From Candidatus Microgenomates bacterium (GTDB lineage: Bacteria > Patescibacteriota > Microgenomatia > UBA1406 > HO2-37-13b): 64,000 nucleotides of DNA. A model generated the notes under the pieces. The model did no database searches. It was not told the DNA's origin and worked only from the letters and a program-made list of their open reading frames with translations. The stretch is from the NCBI GenBank assembly GCA_025449735.1, contig JANWIV010000002.1, positions 62,001 to 126,000 on the forward strand, written 5' to 3'. Below are positions 16,848-21,248 of this stretch, piece after piece. The position numbers and the translations under genes are program-made. Within the stretch, counting starts at the first letter, position 1. Every line of letters begins with the position of its first letter.

Positions 16848-17327
16848 ATGAGACCAAGAGACAACAGATTTGAAGGTAATAAAGAGTTTTCTGAAGAGGT
16901 ACTGCTGATTCGTCGTGTATCCAAAAAAACGCCAGGCGGTAGTACCATTAATTTTTCGGCATTGGTGGTAATCGGTGATCGAAAAGGTCAAGTTGGTATT
17001 GGACTCGGGCGTGGGCTTGAAGTGCCTCAAGCGATTAGAAAGGCGATTCGTCGCGCTAAAAAAGAAATGTTTACCATTCCACTTATAAACGAGACGATTC
17101 CTCATGATATTAAGGTAAAATATAAATCAGCCAACATAATTCTAAAACCAGCCCCCAAAGGAGCCGGTCTTAAGGTCGGTAGTGTGGTTAGGTCAATATT
17201 AAGCGTAGCTGGAGTGAGAAATGCCTCTGGCAAAATTTTGCGTTCTCGTAATCAAATTACCAATGCCTATGGCGTCGTCAAGGGATTGAAGATGCTTCAG
17301 GCTAAAAAAAATAATAATCATGCTTAA
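16848..17327 (+). CDS. rpsE: 30S ribosomal protein S5
   Basis: S5 (159 residues) acts in decoding fidelity. The double-stranded RNA-binding-like domain (VVIGDRKGQVGIGLGRG) and the second domain with VRSILSVAGVRNA are present. rplO follows directly with an 8-nt overlap; there is no rpmD (L30) between them, a CPR trait. Confidence 0.98.
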   Translation: MRPRDNRFEGNKEFSEEVLLIRRVSKKTPGGSTINFSALVVIGDRKGQVGIGLGRGLEVPQAIRKAIRRAKKEMFTIPLINETIPHDIKVKYKSANIILKPAPKGAGLKVGSVVRSILSVAGVRNASGKILRSRNQITNAYGVVKGLKMLQAKKNNNHA

Positions 17328-17760
17328 TCAATTACAGAGTATATCAAGCAGAAAAGGAAAAAGAATCGGTCGCGGTGTCGGTAGCGGTGTTGGTGGCAAG
17401 TCAACCCGCGGTACCAAGCGTCACCAGGCGGCGCGTGAAAAAATTGCCTTGGGTTTTGAGGGTGGTCAAGGAAGAATCACCAAAAAATTTCCTTTGCTTC
17501 GTGGTAAACAGCGAAATAAACCAACAAGAATCGCTAATCTAGTAATTAAAACTGGCGCTCTAAATAAACTAAAGAAAGGTAGTAGCGTTAGCCTAGAGAC
17601 TTTGCTTGAGAATAAACTGGTGAGCGTAAAGGCGCGGACAAGAGGGGTCAAGATTGTGGCTGGGGGTGACCTTGAAGTTGATCTTATTATTAGTATTCCC
17701 ACCTCCCTTTCAGCAAAAGCGATCATTGAGGCAGCTGGGGGCAAGGTTAATCCAAAATGA
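17320..17760 (+). CDS. rplO: 50S ribosomal protein L15
   Basis: L15 (146 residues) with the Gly-rich N-terminus GRGVGSGVGGKSTRGTK and an internal FEGGQGRITKKFP. It overlaps both rpsE (8 nt) and secY (ATGA), suggesting tight translational coupling. Confidence 0.98.
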   Translation: MLNQLQSISSRKGKRIGRGVGSGVGGKSTRGTKRHQAAREKIALGFEGGQGRITKKFPLLRGKQRNKPTRIANLVIKTGALNKLKKGSSVSLETLLENKLVSVKARTRGVKIVAGGDLEVDLIISIPTSLSAKAIIEAAGGKVNPK

Positions 17761-19043
17761 AGCCAATCATAGAAAAATTGAGACTAATGGTCTCTGATAA
17801 GGAAATTTTTCGTAAACTTAAGTTTACATTTCTTATAATCCTCCTTTTCAGAATATTTGCTTTTTTACCGGTTCCTTCAGTTGATCTTGAGGCAATGCGC
17901 CAACTTTTTTCGCAAAATCAATTTTTTGCACTGCTAGATATTTTTTCTGGTGGTACCTTGATTAATTTTTCAGTAATGGCTTTGGGACTGGCTCCTTATA
18001 TTAATGCCTCAATTATTATGCAGCTGTTGACATCAGTCATTCCGAGCCTTGAGGAATTGGCTAAAGAACCCGGTTTTGGACGGGTCAAGATTAATCAATA
18101 CACTCGTTTTCTTACGCTACCAATCGCGATTGTGCAGGGAATCGGCATGTTTATACTACTTAACAAACAAGGGGTCATTCCTCATCTGTCTTTTTTGGAA
18201 TTCTTGACCTTTATTGCGACAATTACCGCTGGCACCTTCATTTTGATGTGGTTTGGTGAGCTTATATCTGAGTATGGACTCGGTAATGGCATTTCGCTTT
18301 TAATTTTTGTGGGTATTGTGGCTCGGATTCCGGTTGTCTTCTTGCAGACGGTCTTGACGACTACGAGCGAGCTGATCATCAACATGGCGGTTCTGACGAC
18401 TCTTGCAGGGCTAGTTGTCTATGGGGTGGTTTATATCAATGAATCAGTTCGAAAGGTGCCAATTTATTATGCGAGACGGGTCAGAGGGAACAAAATGTTT
18501 GGCGGCGCGAGTAATTTCTTGCCGTTGAGGCTTAACCAAGCAGGAGTGATTCCGATTATTTTTGCCATTTCTTTTGTCCTTTTTCCTCAAATGATTGGTA
18601 ATTTTTTAAGCCAAGTAGATAATTCAACCCTTGCCGGCATTGGCCGTTCCCTTACTGGAATTTTTAATCCACTAGGCATTATCTATAATGGTCTTTATTT
18701 CATTCTTGTCGTTGCTTTTACCTTTTTTTATACTGCAATTGTTTTTAGTCCTGACAAAATTGCCGAAGAGATTCAAAAAAACGGTGGTTTCATCCCCGGG
18801 ATCAGACCTGGAGAGGCGACGAAGAATTATTTGAAATACATCTTATATCGAATTACTGTCGTTGGTGCTTTTTTCTTAGGAGGAATTGCAATTTTGCCAT
18901 CAATAATCTCAGCAGCGACTGGTATTACTCAGGTGCTGGTGGGAGGCACTGGGGTGTTGATTGTGGTGTCGGTGGTCTTGGAGACTTTTAAGACCATAGA
19001 AGCACAAATGGCAATGAAGCGATATGACAAATTTCTTAACTAA
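17757..19043 (+). CDS. secY: Protein translocase channel subunit SecY
   Basis: SecY (428 residues), the channel of the Sec translocon in the cytoplasmic membrane. Ten hydrophobic segments are apparent; conserved stretches include APYINASIIMQLL, the YARRVRGNKMFGG loop, and NGGFIPGIRPG near the C-terminal cytosolic loop. It follows rplO by ATGA overlap. Usual genes downstream (adk, map) follow after an inserted rpmG. Confidence 0.98.
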   Translation: MKPIIEKLRLMVSDKEIFRKLKFTFLIILLFRIFAFLPVPSVDLEAMRQLFSQNQFFALLDIFSGGTLINFSVMALGLAPYINASIIMQLLTSVIPSLEELAKEPGFGRVKINQYTRFLTLPIAIVQGIGMFILLNKQGVIPHLSFLEFLTFIATITAGTFILMWFGELISEYGLGNGISLLIFVGIVARIPVVFLQTVLTTTSELIINMAVLTTLAGLVVYGVVYINESVRKVPIYYARRVRGNKMFGGASNFLPLRLNQAGVIPIIFAISFVLFPQMIGNFLSQVDNSTLAGIGRSLTGIFNPLGIIYNGLYFILVVAFTFFYTAIVFSPDKIAEEIQKNGGFIPGIRPGEATKNYLKYILYRITVVGAFFLGGIAILPSIISAATGITQVLVGGTGVLIVVSVVLETFKTIEAQMAMKRYDKFLN

Positions 19044-19068: not shown

Positions 19069-19245
19069 ATGGCAAAAAAGAAAGGAGCACGAGTTTTAGT
19101 CGGTCTTACCTGCACCGTTTGCGGCACCTTTAATTATGTGTCACAGCGGAATAAAACCAATACGGTGAGTCCACTAAAGTTAAATAAATATTGCAAGACC
19201 TGTCGCAAGCGGACGCCGCATAAGGAAAAAAAGAAATTACATTAA
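19069..19245 (+). CDS. rpmG: 50S ribosomal protein L33
   Basis: A 58-residue zinc-type L33: Cys at 15, 18, 42 and 45 form two CxxC pairs, with a TVSPLKLNKYCKTCRKRT core and a Lys-rich end. rpmG is not normally found between secY and adk, so this is a relocated gene. It is followed by a 108-bp word-repeat spacer. Confidence 0.94.
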   Translation: MAKKKGARVLVGLTCTVCGTFNYVSQRNKTNTVSPLKLNKYCKTCRKRTPHKEKKKLH

Positions 19246-19353: not shown

Positions 19354-20484
19354 ATGAAGCTTGTTTTAATCGGAATTCAAGGCGCTGGAAAGTCCACTCA
19401 AGGAAATCTTCTTTCAGAACAGTTAGGCATCCCCTATCTTTCCACCGGGCATATTTTTAGAAAGATGGCTCGCGAAAAAACCGAATTAGGAAGATATATC
19501 AAAGAAGTAATGAACACCGGACTCCTTATCCCCGACGACAAAACAATTGAAATTGTTGAGCAGTATCTTTCTAGACGAGAATATCAAAAAGGTTATATTC
19601 TAGATGGCTTTCCTCGCACCATTAAACAAGCAGAAATTTTTAAAAATAACGTCGATCATGTGGTCTATATAAATCTTCCGGAGCGTGAGGCTTTGTGGCG
19701 TATTTCTCATCGCAATGATACTTCTCGTGCGGATGAGAATTTGGCTGGCATTAGAAAGCGAATTGATCTATTTAAAAAATTGACCACTCCAGTGGTTGAT
19801 TACTACATGGAAAAGGGAAAATTGGTCGAAGTCGATGGCACTAAATCAATTTCTCGCGTTAATAGTCAAATCTTGCAAGCACTAGGCAAACAAGTAGTTA
19901 AAAATGAGCTAAAGGATTGGAAGCCGGATAAAAAAACCATAATTGCGATAGTGGGTCTTTATGGTAGTGGCAAATCAGAGGCAAGCGCATATTTCAGTCA
20001 AAAAAAGTCTTTGCCGATAGTTTCTTTTGGAGCGGTTATTAATGAATACATCGATTCTCAAGGCCTGCCACATAATGAGGAGATTCATAAAAAGGTGCGC
20101 ATGGAATTGCGGGAGCAGCATGGCATGGAGGCCCTAGCGATTCTTAACCTAAAAAAAATTGATGAAGCGCTCAAAAAACATGATTTGATGATTATTGATG
20201 GGATGCGCTCTTGGGAAGAATATCAATATTTGAAACGTAATCTTCCCGATGTACGACTTGAGGTAGTGCTTATTTGGGCACCTAAGGAGGATCGCTTGTC
20301 AAGAATTGCCAAGCGAAAGGTGCGCTCTACCCATTCAGGAGATGATCGAGATATGAATGAAGTAATCTCTGCCAATATGGGGCCAACCTTGGCTTTAGCT
20401 GATCATGTGGTGATTAATCACTCAACCGTTGAAGATTTTCATAGTCGGCTTGAAAATGTTTATCGAGCTATTTATTTCTCTTGA
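19354..20484 (+). CDS. adk: Adenylate kinase fused to an archaeal-type UPF0200 P-loop domain
   Basis: Residues 1-190 are an adenylate kinase (ATP + AMP to 2 ADP): P-loop GIQGAGKST, AMP-site YLSTGHIFR, and DGFPRTIKQA are intact, with a short LID. Residues about 198-376 carry a second P-loop (IVGLYGSGKS), then SFGAVINEY, KVRMELREQHG, MIIDGMRSWEEY and a terminal LADHVVINHS; this order matches UPF0200, a kinase-like family I know mainly from archaea. Adk alone is about 215 residues. The gene occupies the normal adk position between secY and map, so the adk symbol is safe; the C-terminal domain's reaction is unknown. Confidence 0.88.
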   Translation: MKLVLIGIQGAGKSTQGNLLSEQLGIPYLSTGHIFRKMAREKTELGRYIKEVMNTGLLIPDDKTIEIVEQYLSRREYQKGYILDGFPRTIKQAEIFKNNVDHVVYINLPEREALWRISHRNDTSRADENLAGIRKRIDLFKKLTTPVVDYYMEKGKLVEVDGTKSISRVNSQILQALGKQVVKNELKDWKPDKKTIIAIVGLYGSGKSEASAYFSQKKSLPIVSFGAVINEYIDSQGLPHNEEIHKKVRMELREQHGMEALAILNLKKIDEALKKHDLMIIDGMRSWEEYQYLKRNLPDVRLEVVLIWAPKEDRLSRIAKRKVRSTHSGDDRDMNEVISANMGPTLALADHVVINHSTVEDFHSRLENVYRAIYFS

Positions 20485-20498
20485 AAAAGAGGCGTTTA

Positions 20499-21248
20499 AT
20501 GATTACCTACAAGACTCCTGCTGAACTGAAAAAAATGAAGCAGGGGGGAATAATTTTAAAAGGAGTGATTGAGAAGATGCTTGATTTTGTCTCCCCTGGG
20601 ATGCGGACCATTGAAGTTGACAAGTTAGCAGAAGATTATATTCTGTCCCAAGGTGGGAGCCCAAGTTTTAAAAGAGTACCAGGATATCATCATACCATCT
20701 GTATTTGTATCAATGAGCAAGTGGTGCATACGCCGCCGTCGGAGCAAGTGATTCGTGATGGGGATGTGGTGACGATTGATTGTGGGGTATTTTATGGCGG
20801 TCTAAATACCGATTCAGCAATCACCATCCAAGTTGGTAAAATTAATGCTGAAACTACTAAATTCTTGAAAATCGGTGAAGAGACGCTAAAAAAAGCATTG
20901 CAACAGGTTAAAGCGGGAAATAAAATTGGCGCGATTTCAACAGTAATTGATAGTGAAATATCAGGTGCTGGCTACTGCATCATCAATGAATTGACGGGTC
21001 ATGGAGTCGGACCGGACCTTCATGAGGACCCAATGATTCCAGGGTTTGCTCCTAAATCAATTGAGGCGACACCGACGATTCGTGAGGGAATGGTTCTGGC
21101 GGTTGAGGTCATTTATTCAAAAAGTAGTCACAATGTTAAGTTAGAAAAGGGCTCAAAATGGTCACTAATTAGCAGTGATCACTCGCTTTCTGCTTGTTTT
21201 GAAAGCACAATAGCCGTTTATAAAAATAAGACTGCAATTTTGGCCTAA
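20499..21248 (+). CDS. map: Type I methionine aminopeptidase
   Basis: MetAP removes the initiator Met from nascent proteins. Metal ligands are visible: Asp in VVTIDCGV, Asp in GLNTDSA, His in GHGVGPDLHEDP, Glu in VEVIY and Glu in ACFESTIAV. An in-frame TTG at 20481 overlaps the adk stop, but the ATG at 20499 is preceded by GAGG at 20489-20492 (6-nt spacing), one of the few Shine-Dalgarno-like sites here, so I chose it (249 residues). Confidence 0.96.
   Translation: MITYKTPAELKKMKQGGIILKGVIEKMLDFVSPGMRTIEVDKLAEDYILSQGGSPSFKRVPGYHHTICICINEQVVHTPPSEQVIRDGDVVTIDCGVFYGGLNTDSAITIQVGKINAETTKFLKIGEETLKKALQQVKAGNKIGAISTVIDSEISGAGYCIINELTGHGVGPDLHEDPMIPGFAPKSIEATPTIREGMVLAVEVIYSKSSHNVKLEKGSKWSLISSDHSLSACFESTIAVYKNKTAILA

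Follow-up and report, generated by a model that had tools for sequence, protein, structure and literature searches.

An adenylate kinase fused to a UPF0200-type domain, a putative (d)CMP kinase from the operon slot of cytidylate kinase, in an order of Microgenomatia

Closest described systems and the fusion locus

Short-LID bacterial adenylate kinases (e.g. M. tuberculosis Adk, 2cdn) have the fold and the catalytic residues of the N-terminal half of the gene analyzed here, but only the fusion carries a second kinase domain. This second domain has the same P-loop, DGxRS and ADxxIxN motifs as UPF0200 protein SSO1041 (3lw7, 3h0k), presumably a member of arCOG01045, which was solved with AMP bound according to the PDB entry title. 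Whereas SSO1041 is an archaeal protein of ~180 aa with no fusion partner, the domain here is bacterial, lies behind Adk and belongs to a separate clade. With canonical cytidylate kinase (Cmk; PF02224, TIGR00017) the UPF0200 domain has in common an operon slot, a complementary presence and the reaction proposed below; it is not a member of the Cmk family, but may work like Cmk. CoaE (PF01121) has a related kinase fold, and is presumed by us to share a C-terminal ADxVIxN pattern with the UPF0200 domain. Bifunctional Cmk fusions listed in NCBIfam (pantoate ligase-Cmk, EPSP synthase-Cmk and Cmk-Der) join a CMP kinase to another enzyme, whereas in the fusion described here the kinase is of the UPF0200 type and its partner is Adk.

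Proteins of arCOG01045 occur in nearly all archaea according to PMC6650551, where two such proteins of one species did not show the dephospho-CoA kinase activity with which they are annotated, and their function was left unclear. TK1334 of the same source would be a UPF0200 protein, given that a primer printed there encodes MIVIVTGM. In Parcubacteria, cmk is described as poorly and adk as well represented in PMC4508563, where this was called puzzling and a relaxed Adk was guessed. According to PMC2596488, a putative CoaE and AF 1395 both end in a C-terminal UPF0201 domain. Neither the term UPF0200 nor a link between UPF0200 and the missing CMP kinase was found in the open-licence literature searched.

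Within the window (the whole stretch of 64,000 nucleotides that was analyzed), the fusion gene is a single intact open frame of 376 codons, flanked by secY and a small ORF on one side and by map on the other (Table 1). The small ORF is taken by us to encode ribosomal protein L33 (rpmG). An adenylate kinase and a second P-loop kinase in one ORF had been recognized in the sequence-only reading, and both halves of the frame were indeed matched. Upstream of the slot, rpsE and rplO overlap at positions 17320-17327 and rpmD (uL30) is missing between them, as is expected of CPR bacteria.

Table 1. Features of the fusion locus, with positions in the window, and the PF13189-type protein encoded elsewhere in the same genome
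Feature	Position	Strand	Evidence or remark
secY, ORF of 428 aa, upstream slot marker	17757..19043	+	Same upstream neighbour in related loci
Small ORF in the secY/adk interval, two CxxC pairs	19069..19245	+	Assigned by reading the sequence
adk-UPF0200 fusion gene, 376 aa	19354..20484	+	One open frame; stop included
Short-LID adenylate kinase domain (residues 1-180)	19354..19893	+	PF00406 at residues 5-155, 130.2 bits (cut-off 26.8); TIGR01351, 168.9 bits (cut-off 168)
Adk-half P-loop GIQGAGKST (residues 7-15)	19372..19398	+	Identical in the 30 fused homologues: G7, G10, G12, K13, T15
Interdomain junction, residues 181-190	19894..19923	+	W189 invariant; secondary structure
UPF0200-type kinase domain (residues 191-376); (d)CMP kinase activity proposed	19924..20481	+	Sequence and fold matches
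UPF0200-half P-loop GLYGSGKS (residues 201-208)	19954..19977	+	Identical in the 30 fused homologues: G201, G204, G206, K207
DGMRSWEE motif, residues 282-289	20197..20220	+	S286 and E289 invariant in 30 fused homologues
map (methionine aminopeptidase), downstream slot marker	20481..21248	+	Overlaps the fusion end by 4 bases; TTG start is a mechanical choice, with an ATG 6 codons further on
PF13189-type protein, own genome	G000:C4:28137-28697		TIGR02173, 65.5 bits (cut-off 102.1); PF13189, 52.1 bits (cut-off 28)

Identity and conservation of the two halves

Judged by its profile matches and active-site residues, the N-terminal half is a member of the adenylate kinase family. In addition to the P-loop residues given in Table 1, T31, R36, D84, R88, Q92, R116, R120, R125 and R136 were invariant in the 30 fused homologues; by analogy with E. 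coli Adk, we take the invariant residues of this half to be those of the P-loop, the AMP site and the LID arginines.

In the C-terminal half (residues 191-376), the P-loop is followed by SFGAVI, VRMELREQHG, IIDGMRS and LADHVV, the order of motifs on which the sequence-only reading had based its UPF0200 assignment, and this order was conserved in the 30 fused homologues, as were R249, R253, R314, R317, R332, D333, D350 and N355. The best PDB relatives of the isolated domain were the two entries of SSO1041 (phmmer E 1.3e-13), and the same search against solved structures gave only one further, non-significant row. With a profile of the order, SSO1041 was again found on top (E 7e-21), CoaE being the next family (E 0.0026). 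The fold that AlphaFold predicted for the domain (pLDDT 91, pTM 0.86) was closest to that of SSO1041 (VIA: Z 23.3, rmsd 1.9, 169 residues aligned), with the next fold at Z 17.0, and SSO1041 was also matched by Foldseek (E 1.8e-11). The model of both domains together reached a pTM of 0.66, and therefore no domain arrangement is claimed.

Among the Pfam and NCBIfam results for the domain there was no curated UPF0200 profile, only the broad models AAA_18 and AAA_17, and named families matched more weakly. The isolated domain scored 22.0 bits against CoaE, under the cut-off of 27 (the whole fusion reached 29.0 bits, with no single stretch passing), and 23.8 bits against the archaeal (d)CMP kinase TIGR02173, and it had no match to PF02224 or TIGR00017 at E values up to 1. 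Among phage families, it matched phrog_10255 ("kinase"; E 4.4e-11) and, weakly, the dNMP kinase phrog_139 (E 1e-7); a phage search with the UPF0200 domain found nothing, and at least one distant relative was present in viral contigs among the matches listed. CoaE and archaeal Cmk were rejected as families to which the domain might belong, both matching more weakly than UPF0200, and dNMP kinase, also the weaker match, is less likely. With SSO1041 on top both in sequence and in fold, and no other kinase family matching better, the earlier UPF0200 assignment was upheld.

A survey of adk fusions at the level of the order covered 57 genomes, all from the own family and order, and yielded both halves unbroken in one frame in 52 of them, ruling out chance or an assembly artefact as the cause of the fusion. 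The fusion was cut by contig ends in two genomes (G015 and G042), and in G006 the two halves were found as two adjacent ORFs. The remaining two genomes belong to genus g2: in G001 Adk stands alone and the UPF0200 domain is absent, and in G007 the frame is shortened and the domain is degenerate, having lost the P-loop lysine and part of its middle (loci L197 and L199, respectively, on the minus strand). No Tmk scored over the cut-off in G001 and G007, both of which are 86-87% complete, and genus g2 may have shed several nucleotide kinases. In G048 (L200), a free tandem UPF0200 copy (267 bits) lies after the fusion gene.

Relatives and origin of the fusion

In a tree of 84 rows, the 45 bacterial type-1 rows, including a gene of a Nostoc plasmid, formed one clade (support 98/97), which was sister to, and not nested inside, the 8 archaeal rows (98/92). 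Both were joined by a branch with support 100/99, apart from 29 type-2/3 rows, which makes the domain a true UPF0200 relative. Archaeal sampling in this tree is thin, being limited to Thermoproteota (the 8 rows) and a long-branch row from a Halobaculum plasmid. This tree, the second to be built, excludes a very long-branched Rhizobium plasmid row along with two rows of 16-17 bits. The domain had been called archaeal-type, which is correct insofar as it groups with archaeal UPF0200 proteins, but in this bacterial class stand-alone type-1 homologues are common, and one is found on the Nostoc plasmid. Acquisition from archaea, also suggested in the sequence-only reading, was not supported: the bacterial type-1 sequences are a clade of their own beside a thinly sampled archaeal one, and a recent acquisition from the sampled archaea (the 8 Thermoproteota rows and the Halobaculum plasmid row) is not supported by the tree. 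As far as sequence data go, the fusion was formed inside the phylum, from a gene that already adjoined adk.

The type-1 homologue of the conjugative cyanobacterial plasmid pNLP1 of Nostoc (L173:3013-3570) is 36% identical, and its neighbours are DNA methyltransferase, radical SAM and helicase genes. On the Halobaculum plasmid, a distant UPF0200-like gene (L174:1998-2552) is located near a ribonucleotide reductase gene.

Several relatives of the UPF0200 domain point to pyrimidines by their partners and neighbours. In both L095 (G162) and L099 (G191), a more distant UPF0200-like kinase is joined to a dCMP-deaminase-like domain, which is PF00383 in L099 (81.5 bits) and was recognized by eye in L095. 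Within the own order, a second, type-2 UPF0200-like copy lies beside tmk and two consecutive ORFs that were named ndk-like by eye (L203 in G010 and L204 in G018). In L098 (G155), a deaminase-like part seemingly lies ahead of the UPF0200-like kinase.

Alternation with Cmk and the proposed function

In sister families UPF0200 stands as a gene of its own, immediately after adk and ahead of map, and the occupant X of the slot secY-adk-X-map was either a UPF0200 gene or a canonical Cmk gene. In the class sample, 23 of the 26 type-1 UPF0200 genes outside the own order lay directly after adk, and three (G272, G307 and G352) were away from it. Full-length Cmk was found directly after adk in 13 of 35 genes (G178, G201, G207, G220, G224, G261, G270, G289, G313, G314, G325, G351 and G356) and after adk plus one or two further kinase genes in another four (G265, G279, G308 and G343), the remaining 18 being elsewhere or of unchecked position. 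On TIGR00017, which has a cut-off of 135.55, three Cmk ORFs from the slot reached 187.5, 211.9 and 233.9 bits.

The two genes excluded each other. Among the 187 genomes of the class sample, 43 had type-1 UPF0200 and 35 had full-length Cmk, with no overlap as against 8.0 genomes expected (Fisher 7e-5, a statistic that ignores relatedness). The own order contributes 17 of these 43 genomes; outside it, 26 and 35 of 170 genomes had the respective gene, again with zero overlap (p 0.003, Fisher, ignoring relatedness). The first count of type-1 genomes was 44 (80-bit limit) and became 43 when G310, placed with a weak group by the tree, was dropped. PF02224 was matched over its cut-off in 45 genomes, ten of which were not counted as full-length Cmk: seven had only short P-loop matches (28-33 bits) and three (G237, G251 and G294) had a divergent paralogue (81-87 bits). 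When all 45 were counted, the overlap rose to these three of the 43 genomes, versus 10.3 expected (p 0.002). The divergent paralogue (81-92 bits on PF02224) was present in all five sample genomes of genus g202, G270 and G313 included, and since it is there whichever gene fills the slot, it does not alternate. In G237 and G270 the paralogue ORFs (L207:447-1304 and L208:450-1250; 266-285 aa) have an altered P-loop and adjoin a Nudix-like ORF, these names being given by eye.

No full-length Cmk was found in the own order, neither in 28 genomes nor in the 17 of the class sample at E 1e-6. Weaker UPF0200-like genes (28 genomes) overlapped with Cmk in 7 cases versus 5.2 expected, i.e. without exclusion, and the claim is therefore limited to type-1. 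In the wider phylum sample, none of the 7 genomes with type-1 above 80 bits (the own genome included) had full-length Cmk, which was present in only 5 of 145 genomes, so that the exclusion test is without power there. As the control archaea match PF02224, and arCOG01045 is said in PMC6650551 to be near-universal, the exclusion fails in archaea.

The exchange of the two genes was repeated and was also seen at a finer scale. In family f89, 8 genomes had UPF0200, 6 had Cmk, 1 had neither and none had both (p 0.0014, Fisher, ignoring relatedness), the total of 15 being genomes that appear in the match tables, where those with no match are not all listed. In genus g202, UPF0200 is present in G237, G251 and G294 and Cmk at the same place in G270 and G313; all four combinations of the two kinds of Adk with the two occupants were seen, and X is therefore exchanged on its own, as one gene. 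A SecY tree was built from 46 slot loci, drawn from the roughly 57 slot genomes according to whether a SecY of at least 300 aa was available. It requires the Cmk label to change 9 times, no fewer than 6 of these changes being forced by well-supported branches, and the fused loci form one clade (100/100); SecY lies in the same operon as the slot, and co-transfer could blur this tree.

The fusion would thus be a putative bifunctional nucleoside-monophosphate kinase, the N-terminal half of which would make ADP from AMP, and the C-terminal UPF0200 half of which would be a second active P-loop kinase acting on CMP, and probably on dCMP too, in place of the canonical bacterial Cmk missing from the order. 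The UPF0200 gene would first have taken the position of Cmk between adk and map, and would then have fused to adk in the ancestor of the order. In our judgement the domain is probably such a non-orthologous (d)CMP kinase, which displaced Cmk and was then fused to Adk, given that UPF0200 and Cmk alternate as occupants of one operon slot. The "linked nucleotide reaction" of the sequence-only reading is accordingly narrowed, by that alternation, to what is most likely CMP/dCMP phosphorylation. From these patterns we infer the substrate and the activity, as well as any benefit of the fusion such as equal dosage. Several observations count against the (d)CMP reading. Neither type-1 UPF0200 nor full-length Cmk was found in 109 of the 187 class genomes, and Cmk must therefore be dispensable or otherwise replaced in many relatives; moreover, archaea keep both kinds, genus g2 has lost or degraded the domain, and the order keeps a PF13189-type Cmk-like protein.

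The last point leads to an alternative that we consider unlikely, namely that the PF13189-type protein is the real (d)CMP kinase of the order and that the UPF0200 domain phosphorylates another nucleotide. This protein, below the TIGR02173 cut-off but above that of PF13189 (Table 1), is nearer to the archaeal (d)CMP kinase profile than the isolated UPF0200 domain is (65.5 versus 23.8 bits), and was found in 93 of the 187 class genomes, including 16 of the 17 of the own order. It coexists, however, with full-length Cmk in 24 of the 35 Cmk genomes, so it is not the replacement of Cmk, and with type-1 UPF0200 in 39 of 44 genomes (38 of 43 without G310). Co-occurring with both, it is therefore not what alternates with Cmk, and the alternation of UPF0200 and Cmk in one slot would be left unexplained. 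It is distinctly improbable that the UPF0200 domain is a broad or deoxynucleotide kinase, accepting for example dCMP and dTMP like phage dNMP kinases, with Cmk replacement as one part of its role. The weak match to phrog_139 and the type-2 relatives beside tmk or fused to a dCMP-deaminase-like domain would fit such an enzyme, but Tmk over its family cut-off in 26 of 28 genomes of the order (in some only because the Adk half itself gives a weak cross-match) means that no dTMP role is needed in most of them.

A dephospho-CoA kinase replacing CoaE, which is likewise missing from the order (over the cut-off in only 1 of 28 genomes), is a very improbable reading: the common fold and weak sequence similarity of UPF0200 and CoaE are set against a score of the isolated domain below the CoaE cut-off and against two archaeal arCOG01045 proteins reported in PMC6650551 to be without that activity, and the exclusion with Cmk would not be accounted for. 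Even harder to credit is a non-catalytic role, in which the second domain would regulate either Adk or some ribosomal process by binding nucleotides. The fusion partner is a housekeeping enzyme inside a ribosomal-protein operon and genus g2 keeps Adk after losing the UPF0200 domain, which speaks for such a role, but the P-loop lysine and LID-type arginines of the UPF0200 half are invariant in the 30 fused homologues and free UPF0200 versions exist without fusion.

The slot evidence, which ties together the function of arCOG01045 and the scarcity of cmk, would, if the (d)CMP kinase reading is true, identify the missing CMP kinase in part of the phylum as a UPF0200 protein that either neighbours Adk or is joined to it; this would provide a functional assignment for UPF0200/arCOG01045 and a partial answer to the scarcity of cmk in these bacteria. 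A tentative extension, possible and in our view somewhat doubtful, is that the whole of UPF0200/arCOG01045 is an unrecognised pyrimidine (d)NMP kinase family, which would have swapped with Cmk in the slot at least six times, given rise to a bifunctional AMP/CMP kinase in one order, and have its near-universal archaeal members acting as cytidine-nucleotide kinases beside archaeal Cmk.

The adk-map slot was also seen to collect other nucleotide kinases, with divergent Adk-like genes in many relatives; a second gene of this kind lies between adk and map in L041, L043, L045, L046, L049, L070, L073, L078, L079 and L080. In G279 (L153:1309-2658), Cmk is fused in frame to methionine aminopeptidase in a protein of 450 aa (PF02224 at residues 8-220 and PF00557 at 226-438), the opposite side of the slot thus being fused as well.
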